Virus record (IMG/VR): IMGVR_UViG_3300030451_001249
Coordinates: 1 to 33,042 of that record
Reading direction: 5' to 3' (one strand)
From: a virus
DNA: 33,042 nt
The notes below the pieces were generated by a model. It was not told the DNA's origin, made no database searches, and saw only the letters and a program-made list of their open reading frames with translations. The position numbers and the translations under genes were made by a program. Shown here in pieces: positions 3,500 through 22,414 of this stretch (positions are counted from its first letter, which is position 1; every line of letters begins with the position of its first letter).

Positions 3500-4031
3500 T
3501 ATGTTTTAAACTTTCTTGCTTCAGCTAATTTCTTTTCATTATTATACTTATCTTGTTCTTTTTTCAAGTAAGCTATCCAAAGATTGTAATGGCTCATAGG
3601 CATATCCAATACCTCTTGAATTGTAATCTTCAATCTATCTGCGACAACCAATAGGGTTTGAATATCAGTGTCGCTATCTACTTTTTTTCAGCTTCTTCGT
3701 ATGATGTGTCTAAAAGAATTTTATTTGCAATTGTAGCTACGACATTAGAGTCAGCTTTTTTTCTAAGTGCAAATTTGTCTTCAGGTTTAAATGCTTTTTG
3801 CAGTTGTCCTTTATCATCTTTAACCAATAGCTTCATTATTAGTAAATCCACTAATACAGTTAGATCAGAAAAGTTGCTTGATTTCTTGAAGATAATATTT
3901 TTTTCTTCAAGTGTTAAAGGCTCAGAATAAAACACAGATGGATTTCCATGTTCATCTTTCCATTCTTCAACTTCAATAGTTATAGTTTGTAGACTTTCAA
4001 AATGAGATTTAACTCGGTCTATTACTGACAT
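3499..4031 (-). CDS. Tail assembly chaperone, -1 frameshifted long form (gpGT-like)
   Basis: Reading from 4031 and slipping back one base at 3681-3687 extends the protein by 60 residues, giving about 177 residues. The extension reads VDSDTDIQTLLVVADRLKIT and continues with MSHYNLWIAYLKKEQDKY to a TAA at 3501-3499 that overlaps the tape measure ATG. The Tyr/Trp-containing helix in the extension looks like the T domain of other siphophages, which binds the tape measure. The extension has no good start of its own near its beginning, so frameshifting is the simplest way to express it. Confidence 0.85.
3678..4031 (-). CDS. Tail assembly chaperone, short form (gpG-like)
   Basis: A 117-residue product beginning MSVIDRVKSHFESLQTITIEVEEW. 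It lies between the tail tube gene and the tape measure, the fixed place of the lambda G/T-type chaperone pair. It is mostly helical after an N-terminal strand region and ends EEAEKK just before TAG. The stop comes immediately after a slippery A AAA AAG heptamer, so this is the unshifted product. By analogy with lambda it would coat the tape measure protein and recruit tube subunits. The start has TAATG-like spacing 9 nt after the tube gene stop. Confidence 0.85.
   Translation of the reverse strand: MSVIDRVKSHFESLQTITIEVEEWKDEHGNPSVFYSEPLTLEEKNIIFKKSSNFSDLTVLVDLLIMKLLVKDDKGQLQKAFKPEDKFALRKKADSNVVATIANKILLDTSYEEAEKK
3681..3687 (-). promoter_or_regulatory. Programmed -1 frameshift slippery site A AAA AAG
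   Basis: In the zero frame the minus strand reads GAA AAA AAG TAG, so the heptamer A AAA AAG occupies 3687-3681 with codon phase exactly as required for tandem -1 slippage. This is the same heptamer as in E. coli dnaX. The zero-frame stop follows at once and the -1 frame is open for 60 codons to the tape measure start. I did not find a clear stimulatory hairpin downstream by eye. Confidence 0.88.
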
Positions 4032-6539: not shown

Positions 6540-7385
6540 CTATTGGATAGATGAATCGTGGTGTAGTTCTACTCCATAAGAGTCATGGATTTCTCCAACT
6601 CCGTATACAGCAGTAGCTACAATCTCGTCTGCTCTTAGAGAAGCATCTCTTTGAGTTTCGATTTTTAGACCTTGCATTTCAGCTAATGCTAATGCGTCTC
6701 TGTGCATAGCACCACCTTTGTAGTCTCCAGCATTACCTGTGTTAGAGATATTTGAAGTTTCAAATATTCTTAGACCAGCAAGTGAACCAACAAAGCCTGA
6801 TCTCATAGCTTCATTTTGTAGGTCGCCACCATTCGGATTAGCAAAAGTGTTAGTTAAGTTTGCTTTTAAATCGTAAGCAATCTTAGGGTGTAACACTACT
6901 GCACAATCGTTAAGATTTAATGCGTTTCCTCTTAATGTAGAAGCCGCATTGAAGATCGCCGCCGCACTGATAGCCGCAGTACCATCTCCAACCGCAGTTG
7001 AGAAACCATCAAATAATGCAGTTAAATCTGCATCTTGTTTCTTAGCTACAGCTTCTCCAAATAATCTACCAATATCAGCCGCTACATTTCTGGGTGCTGA
7101 GTTTCTTGCTAGATCAGTAAGAGTTGTCATAACACCAACTTCAGCCGCAGTAATTGTTACTGAAGTAGGATTGATTGCAGTATTAGACAAATCAGTTGCT
7201 TCTGAAACTGCCGCCGCAGATACAGCCGAATAAATCGGAACTTCTACAGCTTTACCACCACCAGCAATCGTGTAATTTCTTACAAGATTTCTCATGATAG
7301 ATTGTTCTTGAGCAACGAATTGAGCTTCTGCTACTATCTCTGTGTATAGTTCCGATAGCGTAGAACTTGTACTTTCGTTTGCCAT
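6540..7385 (-). CDS. Major capsid protein
   Basis: A 281-residue protein without signal or membrane segments, starting MANESTSSTLSELYTEIVAE. It has the features of a capsid subunit of HK97 type: an N-terminal helix, strands with VEVPIYSAVSAAAVSEATDL, a long spine helix region around VAADIGRLFGEAVAKKQDAD, and a mixed A-domain with DCAVVLHPKIAYDLKANL. It follows the scaffold gene, as usual. Its coding sequence is noticeably rich in GCC/GCA alanine codons compared with its neighbours, as expected for an abundant alanine-rich protein. The fold is inferred from pattern and position. Confidence 0.85.
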   Translation of the reverse strand: MANESTSSTLSELYTEIVAEAQFVAQEQSIMRNLVRNYTIAGGGKAVEVPIYSAVSAAAVSEATDLSNTAINPTSVTITAAEVGVMTTLTDLARNSAPRNVAADIGRLFGEAVAKKQDADLTALFDGFSTAVGDGTAAISAAAIFNAASTLRGNALNLNDCAVVLHPKIAYDLKANLTNTFANPNGGDLQNEAMRSGFVGSLAGLRIFETSNISNTGNAGDYKGGAMHRDALALAEMQGLKIETQRDASLRADEIVATAVYGVGEIHDSYGVELHHDSSIQ

Positions 7386-7402: not shown

Positions 7403-8107
7403 TTATTTGTTTAAGTTAATTTCTATCGCACCTGAATCTCGCTTCTTACGATATTCCGCATAAGTCTTACGATCTTCTGGGTTTGATAAATCCAAGTCCT
7501 GTATCTTTAGGGGTTTTACAGTATTACCACCGATGCTACTCTGGCTTCCTTGACCAGACAAAGACCCTTGACGGAAATGTGGGTTAGCCTCTAAGAACTC
7601 CTTAACTCTTTCTTCAATTGTTAAAAGTTCGCCTTTAGGGTTATATCGTACATTAGAATTATTATCAACTACTTCTATACGACCATCGTCATTGTACTTA
7701 ACCTCGTCTTTTAACAAAGCAACAACTTGCTGTGGGCTTACAGCTTTGTTCTGTGAAGCAACTGAAAGAATAGAATTATCTACCTTTTCTTTTTTGATCT
7801 GGGTTTTATATCTATTCAATTCTTGATCTTTCTCTGCAAGTCTATCTTGCATTAGCTTTTCAAGTTCTTGTTTTGATTTTGTTTCCTGAATTTGCTTTTC
7901 TTTTAAAGCATCTTCTTCCTGTTTCTTCATATCATCTAACATTCTTTGATGCTTCTTTTGTTCTGCATCTAGTCTTGATTTGATGATGTTGTCTAATTGT
8001 TCTTGTGTAAAAACCATTTCTTTGGCTTTTGTTGGTTCTGCTGTTTCTGGTGTAGCAGTTTCTTCTTGTTGATTTTGCGGTTCAACAACCTTGTTTTCGT
8101 CTGACAT
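7403..8107 (-). CDS. Capsid assembly scaffolding protein
   Basis: A 234-residue, highly charged protein. A disordered Glu/Thr/Pro-rich start is followed by a long coiled coil (about residues 35-120, including EQLDNIIKSRLDAEQKKHQR) and then by a Gly/Ser-Gln linker (GSLSGQGSQSSIGGN). The end has a small helical domain, DLSNPEDRKTYAEYRKKRDS. This layout and the place just before the capsid gene are typical of DUF4355/GP20-like scaffolds, which shape the procapsid and then leave. A strong AGGAGT precedes the start. Confidence 0.87.
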   Translation of the reverse strand: MSDENKVVEPQNQQEETATPETAEPTKAKEMVFTQEQLDNIIKSRLDAEQKKHQRMLDDMKKQEEDALKEKQIQETKSKQELEKLMQDRLAEKDQELNRYKTQIKKEKVDNSILSVASQNKAVSPQQVVALLKDEVKYNDDGRIEVVDNNSNVRYNPKGELLTIEERVKEFLEANPHFRQGSLSGQGSQSSIGGNTVKPLKIQDLDLSNPEDRKTYAEYRKKRDSGAIEINLNK

Positions 8108-8152
8108 ATGACTCCTGTTTGTTAATTACTGTGCTATATCAATATTTTTTAA

Positions 8153-8356
8153 TTAAATCAATATGTCTGGGTCATTGGGGTCATATCCAAGAAAATCGTT
8201 TAATTGCTTTGATGTGATTGGTTTATTTGCTTCTATTGATTCTTTTAAAATAGCACTTAATTCAATTTTTTTTTCATCTGTTAAAAGCACAGTATCAATA
8301 TCATAGTCTTCGCCATATTTTTCTATATATTTAAATAATACTTCTTCTAAATCCAT
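8153..8356 (-). CDS. Small acidic protein between MuF and scaffold genes
   Basis: A 67-residue acidic, helical protein (MDLEEVLFKYIEKYGEDYDI). Its ATG overlaps the stop of the MuF gene (TAATG at 8356), so the two are coupled. It is not in a family I recognise. Since it is co-translated with a protein bearing a metalloprotease-like domain, an inhibitor or chaperone role is conceivable but untested. Confidence 0.6.
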   Translation of the reverse strand: MDLEEVLFKYIEKYGEDYDIDTVLLTDEKKIELSAILKESIEANKPITSKQLNDFLGYDPNDPDILI

Positions 8357-10428
8357 TATAGTAATTTACTCCTCTCCATTATTTCATCAAAAATTTTAGT
8401 TGTGTTTGGTGCAAAATAATTCATTAATTTTATGTAAGCTTCTTTATTTTTTGTGTTAGATAATGCTGTATATTGTGCAAATGCTTCTGTTGAGTGTAAA
8501 TAATTAACAACCCCATAACCCCTTGCAGATGTCTTTGTATTAAAATAATTTTTGTAATATGATTGTCTATGACCATAACCTATAGCAACATCTGTTATAG
8601 AACCTAAATAATCTGCAAACTTACCTTGAAATGATCTTGTCTGTGTTATGAATTGTTGGACACCAATTTTTCTTTTTGTTCCATCTGCTAATGTATATTC
8701 TTTGCTTTTTCCATATCTTGAAAATAAAACTTTGTGTTTTATACCAAAAACAAAATCTAAAGTAGTTTGTTCAAAAGGGTCATAAGTAATATTTTTTTCT
8801 GCTAATAATGCTTTTACTTCATCTAATTCTAAAGGAAATTCTTTTGAATTTATAATATCTTCTACATATTTTGTCTGCACCGCAACTTTTTCTGATAAGG
8901 TTGATAATTTTGATCTTTTCTTTAACAGATTTACTTCTTCATCGATGTAGGCTGGTAATGCTTTTTTTAAATTATCTTTTAAAATTTTCCTATCTGCCAT
9001 AATTTCTTGTTGTGCTATATTGCTTATTTGTATGTATCTTTTATCTATTGAATTATCTAAAACATCATCGATAAGTTTTGTTCCTAATATTTCCTTATTT
9101 GCATTTGGAATAAATTTTTCTGCTAATTTTCTATCTGCTAATAATAGTCTTGCAATATCATGATCAATCTTATGTCCAAACTCATGTGCAAATGTTCTTA
9201 AAGCTGGTAAGCTATTTTCTATATCAAAATCTGAAAGTGTAATTGAATTATCTGATGGTCTATAAAATGCACCACCACCTTTGTTTAATTTTGGTGTTTG
9301 CGGCATTTTACTAATCATTCGAGTAAAATTAGTTGCAACAGTACCAAAAGCTAAAGGTAAGTATTTTTTATCTTCAGGAGAAGTATCTCCAAATATTGAA
9401 GTTGTTGGTTTTGTATCTTGTTTTGCTTCTATAAGTTTTTCTGCTTCATCTCCATCTTCCTCATACCAATCAGGATTAACATAACTAAATTGATGTCTGC
9501 AATTGTAACCACCCCTAACAACTAATGGGTTTCCTGACTTCTTACCTGACCAACTTCTGTTAGCCCAAATCTCTTTGATTTCATCTATTGTAAATAAACC
9601 TGATTTTCGTTTATTCAAATCTCCATTAACCATTCTTCTGCATAAATCCCTTGTTGTTGGAATTACATCGCCATAGTATTTTACATAAGTAAGTCCAGCA
9701 TCATTAGCTTTATTAAAATTAAGTGTTGCATCAAAGTCTCGCAAAGAATCATTTAATATCTGACCAGCATATCGCTTCATGTTCTCCCCTGTTCTGGTAC
9801 TAGCATATTTAGTTTGTAGTTGTTGTATTGCTAGTTCTACTCGTCTTTTAAGTGCTGGATTATCTCTATTAGCTTTGACGTAGTTTACTAATCTATTTAC
9901 TGCTGGGTCTCTTGATGTTGAATAAATACCATTAATAGATTGTCTTAGTTCATCTTCTAGTTCTACAAAGCTATTACCAACCAATGTATTTTGATAAACT
10001 TTATCTGATAGTATTCTGGTAAAGTTGTTTGAAACGTCTTTGAATTGTGTGTAATATTGTTGTTTTAAATTTTTCACCAATGCTAAATCCCCTTTAGTCA
10101 ATTCTTGAAACTCAGGTGGTATCAGGCCAATTGTTTTAAACTGTCTTTCTATTCTTTTAGCTTGTTCTCCAAATCCTTTTCTAACTACCCTATCTGCAAA
10201 TGGTAAATACTCCTTATCCAAAATAGCTTTTATCTTAGGCCTGATTGCTACAGCACTTTGAAGTTCAATAAGTTTACCAGCTTGTCTGGGTAAATCTCTA
10301 TCAGCTAATGCTATGATTTGATCTTCTATTCTATCTAGTGTTCTGGTCAATGCTTGATAATATTCTATCTCAGCTTTCTCTATTCCTTTGATTCGGTATG
10401 CTGTTAGGTCTTTTACAATATCTGCCAT
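8356..10428 (-). CDS. MuF-type minor head protein fused to a zincin metallopeptidase domain
   Basis: A 690-residue protein. Residues about 1-330 form a helical MuF/SPP1 gp7-like minor head region, ending in GYNCRHQFSYVNPDW (NCRH at 309-312), the conserved C-terminal signature of the MuF domain. After a linker, residues 400-690 carry HEFGH (415-419) followed by KIDH, then GYGH (H620) and HSTEAFAQYTAL (E648). HExxH plus a distal E in 'EAFA' is the gluzincin pattern seen in phage minor-head peptidase domains. The protein would be packaged with or near the portal and could be injected with the DNA. The scaffold gene follows; the upstream neighbour on the same strand is the portal, interrupted by an opposite-strand gene. 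Confidence 0.88.
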   Translation of the reverse strand: MADIVKDLTAYRIKGIEKAEIEYYQALTRTLDRIEDQIIALADRDLPRQAGKLIELQSAVAIRPKIKAILDKEYLPFADRVVRKGFGEQAKRIERQFKTIGLIPPEFQELTKGDLALVKNLKQQYYTQFKDVSNNFTRILSDKVYQNTLVGNSFVELEDELRQSINGIYSTSRDPAVNRLVNYVKANRDNPALKRRVELAIQQLQTKYASTRTGENMKRYAGQILNDSLRDFDATLNFNKANDAGLTYVKYYGDVIPTTRDLCRRMVNGDLNKRKSGLFTIDEIKEIWANRSWSGKKSGNPLVVRGGYNCRHQFSYVNPDWYEEDGDEAEKLIEAKQDTKPTTSIFGDTSPEDKKYLPLAFGTVATNFTRMISKMPQTPKLNKGGGAFYRPSDNSITLSDFDIENSLPALRTFAHEFGHKIDHDIARLLLADRKLAEKFIPNANKEILGTKLIDDVLDNSIDKRYIQISNIAQQEIMADRKILKDNLKKALPAYIDEEVNLLKKRSKLSTLSEKVAVQTKYVEDIINSKEFPLELDEVKALLAEKNITYDPFEQTTLDFVFGIKHKVLFSRYGKSKEYTLADGTKRKIGVQQFITQTRSFQGKFADYLGSITDVAIGYGHRQSYYKNYFNTKTSARGYGVVNYLHSTEAFAQYTALSNTKNKEAYIKLMNYFAPNTTKIFDEIMERSKLL

Positions 10429-10536: not shown

Positions 10537-10989
10537 ATGGAACAAATCAGAAAATATAAATTATCTGGAAATGATTTAATCAATAATTTTGAGTTAAGAC
10601 CTGATGCAAAATTAGGTAATAAAGTTGAGGATAATTGGATTCCTAAAAGAAAAGATGTTTTAGTTGAAATTCAATTAAGTGCTAACGATTTAAGATATTG
10701 TGGTTTTGGAGTGCAAAGTATTTTTGCAATAACTATACTTTTTCCTGATGGTTCAGTTTATAAAACTATGAGAAATGCTAAAGATGAAGATTTGCAAAAA
10801 TGTCAAGATTATGTGAATAAGCATCTTAAAAAAAATGGTTATTCAACTGTTGAATTTATATCTGACTTTACTTTTCAATACGAAGAAAATGGAGAAACAC
10901 CTAATTCAGTAATTTATAACGAAGAAAGAAAAAAAGGTTGGTTGTCAGAGGGTTTATATAGAATTAAAAATATTAAAAAAGTTTCTTAA
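10537..10989 (+). CDS. Moron-like protein of unknown function
   Basis: A 150-residue cytoplasmic-type protein starting MEQIRKYKLSGNDLINNFEL. It has no signal peptide or membrane segment. It seems to be alpha/beta, with strands in VLVEIQLSANDLRYCGFGVQ and IFAITILFPDGSVYKTM, and helix DEDLQKCQDYVNKHLKK. It is alone on the plus strand between the leftward portal and MuF genes, with its own promoter and RBS. The A/T-ending codons look like those of the genome. I do not recognise the family. Independent expression inside the structural block suggests a cargo role such as superinfection exclusion or anti-defence, but that is inference. There are only 2 nt between its stop and the portal stop. Confidence 0.85.
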   Translation: MEQIRKYKLSGNDLINNFELRPDAKLGNKVEDNWIPKRKDVLVEIQLSANDLRYCGFGVQSIFAITILFPDGSVYKTMRNAKDEDLQKCQDYVNKHLKKNGYSTVEFISDFTFQYEENGETPNSVIYNEERKKGWLSEGLYRIKNIKKVS

Positions 10990-10991
10990 TT

Positions 10992-12401
10992 TTATATCTG
11001 TTCTTCAGCTACTGTTTCTTGTTGTACTTCGTCCTGTGTGAACTGACCTACTTCTGCTTGTGAGTCTATCTCATCAAATATATCGTTTAGCTTCTCATCA
11101 TCATCTACTACTGCTCTAGCTATTTCTTTATCTACTTCTTTAGTAAATGTAGGAGAACCAATGTTAAGTGCTTTTGCTTGTTGATAGTAAACAAGATCAG
11201 CCGCATAATCTCTTATGTTAAAACTATCTGGGTAACTAATCTCCCCATCAAATGTAGCATCTTGAAATATTGCATATAGTCTAAATAGTTGTTCTTCAGC
11301 TATTTGTAGATTGTCTGCTTTCTCTGATAGTCTTGCATTAAGTAATTCAAATTCTGTTTGTAAAGCTACCCCTGAAGATACTTGTTGTTTTGTAGTTCTG
11401 ATAGCCCCTGTGTGTGCAATTCTATTAATTGACTCGACCTTTGTATTAATAGACTCCATGATTGCTTGTAGGTTTTGACCTGATGGTTGAAGCAAATAAG
11501 GTTTTAAATTTGGTTCTAGTTCTTCAGGCATTTCTATAACTGCACCAGCACCAGCACTAGCATTTACTCCAGCAGTTTTAACTAATGATGGGTGGTTTGT
11601 TAATCTAATCAATTGTTCGATTTCTGAATACTCGTTGTAGATAGCTTTTTGTAAATCTGCAATATCAACTAAGTCAGATTGGCCAATGCCTCGTTTGTGC
11701 GATTTTGCATTGTATAAAATAACTGCTGGTATTTTGCCAATCTTATTTTCGGCAGTATCTATCAAAGTTGGTTCTGATCTATCATCTTTTAAATAAATAG
11801 TATCAACTCTATCTAAATACCACATTCTAAAGTAAGTACCCCCTTCTCTGTCTACTTCTTCTCTGATTTTTAAGTAGTCCAAAGTATACTTACCATTAAG
11901 TTCTCTTTTGAAGTTCCAATCAAATACGTTCTCTGGTGTTACAATTGAAACATAAGGTCTGATCTCTTGATCTAGTTCTTCTGCTCTTGTGTTTGTTGTT
12001 ACATTTGGTTTATCTAAAATCATAAAACAATGGCCATAAATAGAAGCATAGTTCTGTGCCTGTTTCATAACTGTATTAAAATTGTTTCCATCTAAATCAG
12101 CATCTTTTAAGAATGCTTCTAAACTAGGTTCATCAGCCATAGCACCAAAATCTCTTGAAGCTTTTACTCTGAATAAATACGATGAATAAATTTGAATAAT
12201 GTTTTTGCAGTGGTTATCGCATGGTGTGTTTGCTAGTCTTTGATTGAACTCGTTATCTAATTCTAAATTATATCTGTTTAGATATTGGCCTATCATATAA
12301 TCATAACCACCATTGTATGATCTGATGTAATACTCCCAATTATTTACTGATTCCTGAAAGTCTTTGTGGGTTTCGAAAGCTTGTTGTCGAGTATATGCCA
12401 T
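10992..12401 (-). CDS. Portal protein
   Basis: A 469-residue protein starting MAYTRQQAFETHKDFQESVN. It sits immediately after the large terminase, and is followed (skipping the moron) by the MuF gene: the conserved TerL-portal-MuF order of SPP1-like heads. It has the helical wing/stem composition of SPP1 gp6/DUF4055-like portals, including YGHCFMILDKPNV, SDLVDIADLQKAIYNEYSEI and a long helical clip/crown region around TKQQVSSGVALQTEFELLNA. The acidic, Gln-rich C terminus (QAEVGQFTQDEVQQETVAEE) is common in portals. It forms the dodecameric DNA entry ring. Confidence 0.88.
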   Translation of the reverse strand: MAYTRQQAFETHKDFQESVNNWEYYIRSYNGGYDYMIGQYLNRYNLELDNEFNQRLANTPCDNHCKNIIQIYSSYLFRVKASRDFGAMADEPSLEAFLKDADLDGNNFNTVMKQAQNYASIYGHCFMILDKPNVTTNTRAEELDQEIRPYVSIVTPENVFDWNFKRELNGKYTLDYLKIREEVDREGGTYFRMWYLDRVDTIYLKDDRSEPTLIDTAENKIGKIPAVILYNAKSHKRGIGQSDLVDIADLQKAIYNEYSEIEQLIRLTNHPSLVKTAGVNASAGAGAVIEMPEELEPNLKPYLLQPSGQNLQAIMESINTKVESINRIAHTGAIRTTKQQVSSGVALQTEFELLNARLSEKADNLQIAEEQLFRLYAIFQDATFDGEISYPDSFNIRDYAADLVYYQQAKALNIGSPTFTKEVDKEIARAVVDDDEKLNDIFDEIDSQAEVGQFTQDEVQQETVAEEQI

Positions 12402-18074: not shown

Positions 18075-18843
18075 TTTTACTCCTTTGTTGATTGTATTCT
18101 AAGCTTCTTTTCTTAAAGTCTTCTTCTAAGCTGTTTAAATATTTACAAGCTTTGAAGCCTTTTAAGTATTTAGGTTTGATTTCAAATACCCTCATACTAA
18201 CATCTTTAACAGGTTCTTTTGGAATATTAATCACTGCTAAAAACTCAACTTTTAAATCAGTAGAATCCTCAACTAATTTTTTATAAGTTGATATTTGTAT
18301 AGGCATATCAGGGTAATAGTCCTTAGATGTTTTAAAATCTAAGATACCAATTTTACCTTTATACTTAACCAAGCAATCCAATGTTCCGCAGACATCTAAT
18401 TCTTTTGAGTAGTAAGTTTTTTCAGTTTCAATAACCTGAATCTTTTTACTATCCCAAAATGCTTTGAACTTACCAAACATTGTTTTAAGAGGCTCTGTAG
18501 TTGGTGTAATTACTTCTTTTCCTAATATGTAATCTTCACATAAACTGTGCATATTAGTACCAATATTCATAGCTTCTTCTTTGATTGATTTTACTCTGTA
18601 TTTAAGATCGTCCATAGTTTGTTGAATCTCATCTACAGGTTTTTTGTTGTGTTTAAGAATTTGATTTAAAGCTTCATAAACACAATTTTCAGACCACCAC
18701 ATCAAAGCACCTTTTCCAAATCTTTCGCTTATGATTGTAGTTACTCCTTTTTTCTTCAGGCCATTAACAGTATATCTTGCACCCCTTGCTTTTGGTGCAA
18801 ACTCTATCTGATTGCCATGCTTATCTTTCGACTTGATAATCAT
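18064..18843 (-). CDS. PD-(D/E)XK exonuclease
   Basis: A 259-residue protein, size typical for lambda Exo/RecB-like/Cas4-like phage nucleases. It has a conserved N-terminal GTNMHSLCEDYILGKE helix, a GTLDCLVKY core (GTLD) and ILDFKTSKDY (D-F-K-T). The order 'GxxxH...E', 'GTxD', 'DxKT', then helix QISTYKKLVE with conserved Q and Y, is the PD-(D/E)XK_1 signature. It would make 3' single strands for recombination with the SSB-like protein encoded next. Its start overlaps the regulator gene by 23 nt. Confidence 0.88.
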   Translation of the reverse strand: MIIKSKDKHGNQIEFAPKARGARYTVNGLKKKGVTTIISERFGKGALMWWSENCVYEALNQILKHNKKPVDEIQQTMDDLKYRVKSIKEEAMNIGTNMHSLCEDYILGKEVITPTTEPLKTMFGKFKAFWDSKKIQVIETEKTYYSKELDVCGTLDCLVKYKGKIGILDFKTSKDYYPDMPIQISTYKKLVEDSTDLKVEFLAVINIPKEPVKDVSMRVFEIKPKYLKGFKACKYLNSLEEDFKKRSLEYNQQRSKNAN

Positions 18844-19186
18844 AATTGTTCACTCTCTTTCTTAAAAATTTTAAGTCGTTGTTTTTTAAAGGCTCGATGA
18901 AATAATCAATATCGCAATTTAAAAACTCAGATAGTTTCAATTCGCTGATCTTGCTTACTGCGTTCTTGCCCTTTTCATACTTCTGAATCTGTTGGAAGGT
19001 AACAGAGATTGCTTTTGCAACTCTTGTCTGTGTGTACCCTCTCATCAGCCTCATTTTCTTTAATTGTAGTCCGTATATCTTTTTCAAAACTAATTCGTTT
19101 TGTTCATCAGATACACCGAACATATTTAGATATGGTTCGATCTGTGAATTGATCTCCCCAATCTTTCCCTCATTTTTTATTATCAT
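18821..19186 (-). CDS. XRE-family transcription regulator
   Basis: A 121-residue protein starting MIIKNEGKIGEINSQIEPYL. Residues 50-105 are a clear HTH_3 domain: LQLKKMRLMRGYTQTRVAKA then ISVTFQQIQKYEKGKNAVSK and LSEFLNCDIDYFIEPL. An N-terminal helical extension precedes the HTH. It is encoded in the early block, so it may control the divergent region at 22.3-22.6 kb. Candidate operator dyads are listed there. No integrase or antirepressor was seen, so its role in lysogeny is doubtful. Confidence 0.88.
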   Translation of the reverse strand: MIIKNEGKIGEINSQIEPYLNMFGVSDEQNELVLKKIYGLQLKKMRLMRGYTQTRVAKAISVTFQQIQKYEKGKNAVSKISELKLSEFLNCDIDYFIEPLKNNDLKFLRKRVNNYDYQVER

Positions 19187-21550: not shown

Positions 21551-21832
21551 TTAGTTAGTTAAAGTTTTATTTTTTCTCATAGCAAGATATTGTCCATCTA
21601 CTAATGGCTCAAACATCATATTCCAAACATTCTCATCTTCTGAAATAATTTGAAGTATCATATCTCTCGGCATACTATCTAAACCATCAAGAACAATTTG
21701 AACTGCTCTAAACTGATGTGCGTTTAAAAGATCAGCAATTGAAATATATGATTGATAATCAATAGAATCAGAATGCAAAGTTTTTGCTTCTTGAACTATT
21801 TTGTTTGCTATTATTGTTTCTGCGTGTTTCAT
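21551..21832 (-). CDS. Early hypothetical helical protein
   Basis: A 93-residue protein starting MKHAETIIANKIVQEAKTLH. It is predicted all-helical with no membrane segment. Start overlaps the stop of the upstream gene (TAATG-type at 21832). No recognised motif. Confidence 0.65.
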   Translation of the reverse strand: MKHAETIIANKIVQEAKTLHSDSIDYQSYISIADLLNAHQFRAVQIVLDGLDSMPRDMILQIISEDENVWNMMFEPLVDGQYLAMRKNKTLTN

Positions 21833-22287
21833 TATGCTCTCTCCTTTGTGTAAAATAAATGTTCTTCTGTAACTTTATCCTTAATTAAATTGAATGCTGT
21901 TTGACCACCATGATTTTTATAAGAAATAAAAAAACTATTGTGCATAAAAGTTAAAGGAACAACTTTATCTCTTAGCATTACTTCAATTTTTTCAGGATAA
22001 AATCCGTTAATATAATTATAAGTAAATTCTTTATAATCTCTTTCTCTTGAAACAACCTCAACACCCAAAGCTCTTATAGCTTTGATTTTTTTAGTTAGAT
22101 TTTTTTCTTTCTCTAACTTAAATTTCAGTTGTCTTAATTTATCTTGATTAAAAATTTCTGACTCAATAGCTTTTGTAACTTTATCAAGCATCTCGCCTTT
22201 TAAGTTCAGATCGTTATTGTTATCTATAAAAGAATTTAGATTAGTAATTTTATTTTCTATTTCTTTTATTTCTTCATATGTTTTCAT
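21832..22287 (-). CDS. First leftward early protein, coiled coil
   Basis: I choose the ATG at 22287 (MKTYEEIKEIENKITNLNSF) because AGGAG lies at 22293-22297; an upstream start at 22332 is possible but has no RBS. The 151-residue product has a long helical N-terminal half (to about residue 85) and a beta-rich C-terminal half (NYINGFYPEKIEVMLRDKVV). As the first gene of the long leftward unit it is likely an early host-interaction protein. Family unknown. Confidence 0.68.
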   Translation of the reverse strand: MKTYEEIKEIENKITNLNSFIDNNNDLNLKGEMLDKVTKAIESEIFNQDKLRQLKFKLEKEKNLTKKIKAIRALGVEVVSRERDYKEFTYNYINGFYPEKIEVMLRDKVVPLTFMHNSFFISYKNHGGQTAFNLIKDKVTEEHLFYTKERA

Positions 22288-22414
22288 ATTTTCTCCTTTT
22301 AGGTTTATATTTTTTTTAGTTAACATATACAAACAATGTACATTATGCAGTTGTATTTACAACAATTAATTTACCGCATAAAACCTAGCTTTTTTAACTA
22401 TCTATACACCAGAA

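Follow-up and report, generated by a model that had tools for sequence, protein, structure and literature searches.

What does a metallopeptidase do at the end of a phage minor head protein, and why does a small acidic gene follow it? We addressed this question in an IMG/VR virus record taken in full (33,042 bases; hereafter, the window), in which no end repeats were found and whose closest isolates are the Pelagibacter phages HTVC202P, HTVC111P, HTVC026P and HTVC112P. The head operon runs in the order terminase, portal, head-zincin gene, small gene, scaffold and capsid (Table 1). The head-zincin gene lies exactly where the initial annotation had placed it (8356-10428, minus strand, 690 aa). 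Our preferred reading, to which we give a probability of roughly 60%, is that the zincin is an exchangeable payload carried by the virion and that the small gene encodes its cognate inhibitor, in a system resembling the MuF polymorphic toxins.

Table 1. Coordinates of the features discussed (positions in the window unless a locus is named).
Feature	Position	Strand	Basis
Small acidic partner gene, 67 aa, predicted cognate inhibitor	8153..8356	-	Pairing and co-divergence with the zincin
Zincin metallopeptidase domain, residues 344-690, class 0	8359..9399	-	42-sequence alignment; AlphaFold2 pLDDT 94.8
HEFGH, residues 415-419; predicted zinc ligands H415 and H419, predicted catalytic E416	9172..9186	-	H, E and H invariant in 42/42
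GYGH, residues 617-620; H620 invariant	8569..8580	-	42-sequence alignment
EAFA, residues 648-651; predicted third ligand E648	8476..8487	-	E648 and A651 invariant in 42/42
Minor head (MuF-like) domain, residues 1-330, carrier part	9439..10428	-	Conserved in relatives; occurs alone
Exchanged cassette, zincin and small gene	8145..9433	-	No similarity to L030; 94-96% identity on either side
Portal protein gene (context)	10992..12401	-	PF05133, phrog_145
Scaffold protein gene (context)	7403..8107	-	phrog_2303, E 8e-10
Major capsid protein gene (context)	6540..7385	-	PF25209, phrog_267
Acyltransferase-annotated tail-module genes	L288:21400-21813, L345:21239-21646, L347:22452-22838		Annotation

The C-terminal part had been read as a zincin from its HEFGH, GYGH and EAFA motifs, and this reading is borne out: all three are present, and the residues at the ligand positions are invariant in all 42 domains of an alignment that extends down to 22-26% identity. 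The conservation of HExxH in homologues, whose lack had been named as one way to refute the reading, is thus complete, and E648 is kept as well. Fifteen positions are invariant altogether (H415, E416, H419, D422, D479, F604, D606, G609, G617, G619, H620, Y624, Y625, E648 and A651). A chance HExxH is ruled out by this conservation and by the motif's frequency of just 0.4% in shuffles of the 690-aa protein. With the same alignment, AlphaFold2 gave the basic domain (charge +8, pI 9.2) a pTM of 0.93. In the model, three short strands precede a long helix with the HExxH, and E648 lies in a later helix, a predicted order that is the one expected for a zincin. A fold search with the full-length model was uninformative, the N-terminus being poorly predicted. 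The domain has weak sequence-profile links to lethal-factor-like and other zincin models. Like the lethal-factor-like zincins (PF07737, ATLF), it has HExxH and then a later Glu, and class-1 payloads of sister phages reach E-values of 6e-5 to 0.009 with PF07737, all below its cut-off; unlike them, the window's class has no Pfam match above cut-off and its confidently predicted domain model no significant Foldseek match in the PDB (best E 0.4).

The N-terminal head domain shows about 65-99% identity across many marine contigs and four cultured Pelagibacter phages, with C263, P301 and C310-R311-H312 invariant (the C..P..NCRH motif). It also occurs on its own, as a protein of 329-340 aa, in HTVC111P, HTVC112P, HTVC202P and about 70 contigs; in the three isolates the short protein ends right past the NCRH motif and the scaffold gene comes directly next. 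The label “MuF” given by the initial annotation stands in part. In its favour are the gene order, with the gene adjoining the portal gene in a tailed-phage head module, which is a MuF criterion, the C..P..NCRH motif, and the PHROG links of relatives: phrog_4728 (head morphogenesis) matches a class-2 relative across head core and zincin (L034, 241-599, E 9e-11), and phrog_595, annotated as head maturation protease, is matched by the head domain of more distant carriers. Against it, a profile search found no match to PF04233, the Pfam MuF family, above its curated cut-off in the window or the 690-aa protein, nor did profile comparison with PF04233-positive head proteins yield a MuF assignment; we therefore keep the name MuF-like.

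Comparison with related contigs, several of which are short fragments, shows that the zincin and the 67-aa acidic gene are one exchangeable cassette. Contig L030 and the window share 95.9% identity across terminase and portal and 94.2% in the head domain; similarity is absent from 9433 to 8145 and resumes, at 95.7% identity, from 8144 on. What has been replaced is therefore the zincin together with the small gene. On the same head domain we found three zincin classes, which beyond the motifs resemble one another little, and a fourth, single case (L043:1621-3423, with HELGH) that has a distinct type of acidic ORF, 51 aa long, behind it. Across the Pelagibacter-phage relatives, zincins of four lineages or more occur on the same head protein, every lineage paired with a small gene of its own, and some copies of that head protein bear no zincin. 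On the head-domain tree of 53 carriers, zincin class changes at least 18 times; L035 and L069, for instance, have head domains identical across 321 residues and carry class-0 and class-1 cassettes, respectively. A natural empty site was found in L072, which shares its head domain with L035, is 99.2% identical to it across 3.3 kb and 96.9% across 2.9 kb and has 59 bases (3788-3846) in place of the zincin and small gene of L035 (3342-4587). An assembly artefact is conceivable for this deletion, yet about 70 further short forms exist. Conversely, L297 carries a class-0 zincin and a small gene 56% and 61% identical to those of the window on a head protein that is just 34% identical. The cultured HTVC026P has a class-1 cassette, with gp30 as the class-1 form, annotated as hypothetical proteins only. 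Both parts of the cassette are under purifying selection, dN/dS being below 1 in every pair where it was computable, and positive selection is rejected on that basis. The broken copies in L023 and L058 may be sequencing errors.

The small protein (67 aa, pI 4.1, net charge -10) is translated from a start codon that falls within the large gene's stop codon (TAATG). A small ORF, defined as one of 45-110 residues, lies directly 3' of the zincin in 108 of 110 zincin loci and in 1 of the 71 loci in which no zincin was recognised, the sole exception being L043, itself a divergent zincin. These counts are clustered, because the head-domain tree shows only about three changes in zincin presence; the evidence from swap, deletion and transfer does not rest on them. 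The small genes behind zincins are mostly acidic, and their family is set by the zincin class: the largest family (59 members) is always 3' of class-1 zincins, and another (41 members) is found solely behind classes 0 and 2. In partial Mantel tests, the distance between small genes correlated with that between zincins given the head domain (0.84 in class 0 and 0.74 in class 1, p 0.0005), as against 0.03 and -0.24 with the head-domain distance given the zincin. Judging from these distances, the small genes diverge in step with the zincin and not with the head domain. The suggestion that the small gene is a partner or inhibitor is thus backed by co-occurrence, co-divergence and co-transfer, with inhibition as the predicted activity.

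Position could also account for the pairing, if the small gene were an unrelated head or neck gene hitch-hiking with the zincin: it lies directly 3' of it, and short exchanges would move both. We regard this as very improbable, given that the small gene is absent whenever the zincin is absent, that its family matches the class of the zincin even where the head protein is divergent, and that its distances do not track those of the head domain. Nor was any copy found away from a zincin: the window's small gene has 28 relatives in IMG/VR, every one on a contig with a zincin preceding, and there were no orphans. That search covered IMG/VR and the window's subfamily, the whole small family being too variable for scanning; a search with the window's small protein alone gave no confirmed matches.

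The initial annotation had also considered that the zincin might process head proteins. It would then be a head-maturation protease trimming scaffold or capsid, with the small protein regulating it until assembly, as the position of the gene between portal and scaffold and the phrog_595 matches of distant carriers would allow. This role is disfavoured, and unlikely as the main one, because L072 lacks a zincin despite a scaffold 100% identical to that of L035. Moreover, the scaffold and capsid of the window are 78% and 91% identical to those of zincin-less phages, compared to at most 72% and 85% for zincin carriers (the near-twin L010 aside), complete zincin-less isolates have neither a zincin nor a matching small gene elsewhere, and different zincin classes replace one another freely on the same head protein.

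It has been proposed that zincins process multidomain proteins of phages (Iyer et al. 2017, PMC5512222), and a variable linker separates the two domains here, so the zincin might instead cut itself off the head domain, with the small protein as a folding or packaging partner and not an inhibitor. We give this little credence: there is no further effector domain to release, the linker has no conserved cut site, and a pure folding partner alone leaves the class-wise exchange of both parts unexplained.

The payload model builds on what the sequence comparisons demonstrate, namely the cassette, the pairing, the co-divergence, the catalytic conservation and the frequent exchange. The minor head protein, near the portal, would bear the C-terminal zincin metalloprotease as an exchangeable payload, and payload and small acidic gene would form one functional, mobile unit. 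The small protein would bind and restrain its own protease during synthesis late in infection. Judging from the MuF-like carrier and published MuF systems, the head protein would carry a small number of protease molecules into the virion, and the protease would pass with the DNA into the next host, where it would cleave a protein; its target may lie in the host or in a competitor. Several points count against the model: PF04233 is not matched, all payloads are zincins, an immunity gene is not obviously needed by a lytic phage, and the class-1 zincin of L161 (1325-4753) has no small ORF 3' of it. This zincin is terminal on a 1142-aa protein with no MuF match, possibly another virion-borne carrier.

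In published MuF toxins, such as Apk2 and Bxa (PMC11699363, PMC12226406), adjoining small proteins neutralise the toxin (PMC5576092, PMC11699363), and 20% of putative MuF polymorphic toxins have a metallopeptidase domain (Jamet et al. 2017, PMC5576092). The phages analyzed here share with this family a conserved minor-head N-terminus with an exchangeable enzymatic C-terminus (four zincin lineages or none), short forms without the enzyme, and a small ORF behind the toxin forms. They differ from it in that PF04233 is unmatched and in that the sampled loci show zincin-type payloads only, whereas MuF polymorphic toxins usually vary in activity. The family has been described as exclusive to temperate phages, with no MuF toxin in virulent ones (PMC5576092); in contrast, no integrase was found in these Pelagibacter phages. 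A second likeness is to the polyvalent-protein zincins (MPTase-PolyVal), which occur in phage proteins thought to be injected (Iyer et al. 2017, PMC5512222): here too a zincin is part of a phage protein, and 1 of the 42 class-0 members matches PF18818 (E 0.0045). For the window's own domain there is no significant match, and the protein has two domains only plus an exchangeable partner gene. Some class-0 zincins also weakly match phrog_4529 (annotated as minor head protein and DNA pilot) and phrog_4728; for phrog_4529 the window's own zincin reaches only E 0.007. Fusions of MuF and metallopeptidase are therefore already known, and what is new is the all-zincin repertoire, its occurrence in SAR11 phages and the lack of an integrase. 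Among papers naming both MuF and pelagiphages, we found only a virus-evolution perspective that uses each word once.

These phages show no sign of being temperate, as far as gene content can tell. The window and 14 related records (15 in total), including the complete HTVC026P, yielded no recombinase of PF00589 or PF00239, and neither head-domain nor zincin relatives were found in 84,980 bacterial and archaeal genomes; lifestyle is read here from missing genes alone, and gene absence is no proof of it. Despite the absence of an integrase, the product of window 18821-19186 (minus strand) resembles a helix-turn-helix regulator, and the HTVC isolates too have a gene annotated as such a regulator. 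These genes bear on whether the phages are strictly lytic.

Tentatively, and with less confidence than we have in the payload model, we suggest that lytic SAR11 phages may carry on their virions a protease-only polymorphic effector system, in which each phage would have one zincin allele and the matching inhibitor, and alleles swapped at a high rate would serve phage-phage or phage-host conflict in the ocean. If true, the logic of MuF toxins would not be tied to lysogeny. The arrangement itself resembles a toxin with its antidote; reported until now from temperate phages only, it occurs here in phages of the ocean's most abundant bacteria. MuF toxin-immunity pairs have so far been explained via lysogeny, prophages protecting their hosts and poisoning competitors. 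For the same kind of enzyme-plus-small-gene cassette in phages that have no recognisable integrase, a different account is needed, for instance a payload held inactive until packaged, or competition among co-infecting phages. The question can be tested, since nature offers near-identical phages that differ in having a class-0 cassette, a class-1 cassette or neither.

Other genes of these phages also drew our attention. Tail modules of HTVC026P, HTVC111P and HTVC112P contain genes annotated as toxin-activating lysine-acyltransferase or RTX acyltransferase (Table 1). Between the portal and head-protein genes of the window, a 150-aa ORF (10537-10989, plus strand) runs against the direction of the head operon. 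Small early genes seem to use this gap as a landing site, because the ORF is missing from L030, which is otherwise 95% identical, and HTVC111P has a different antisense gene there, gp32, which is 73% identical to window positions 21832-22332.
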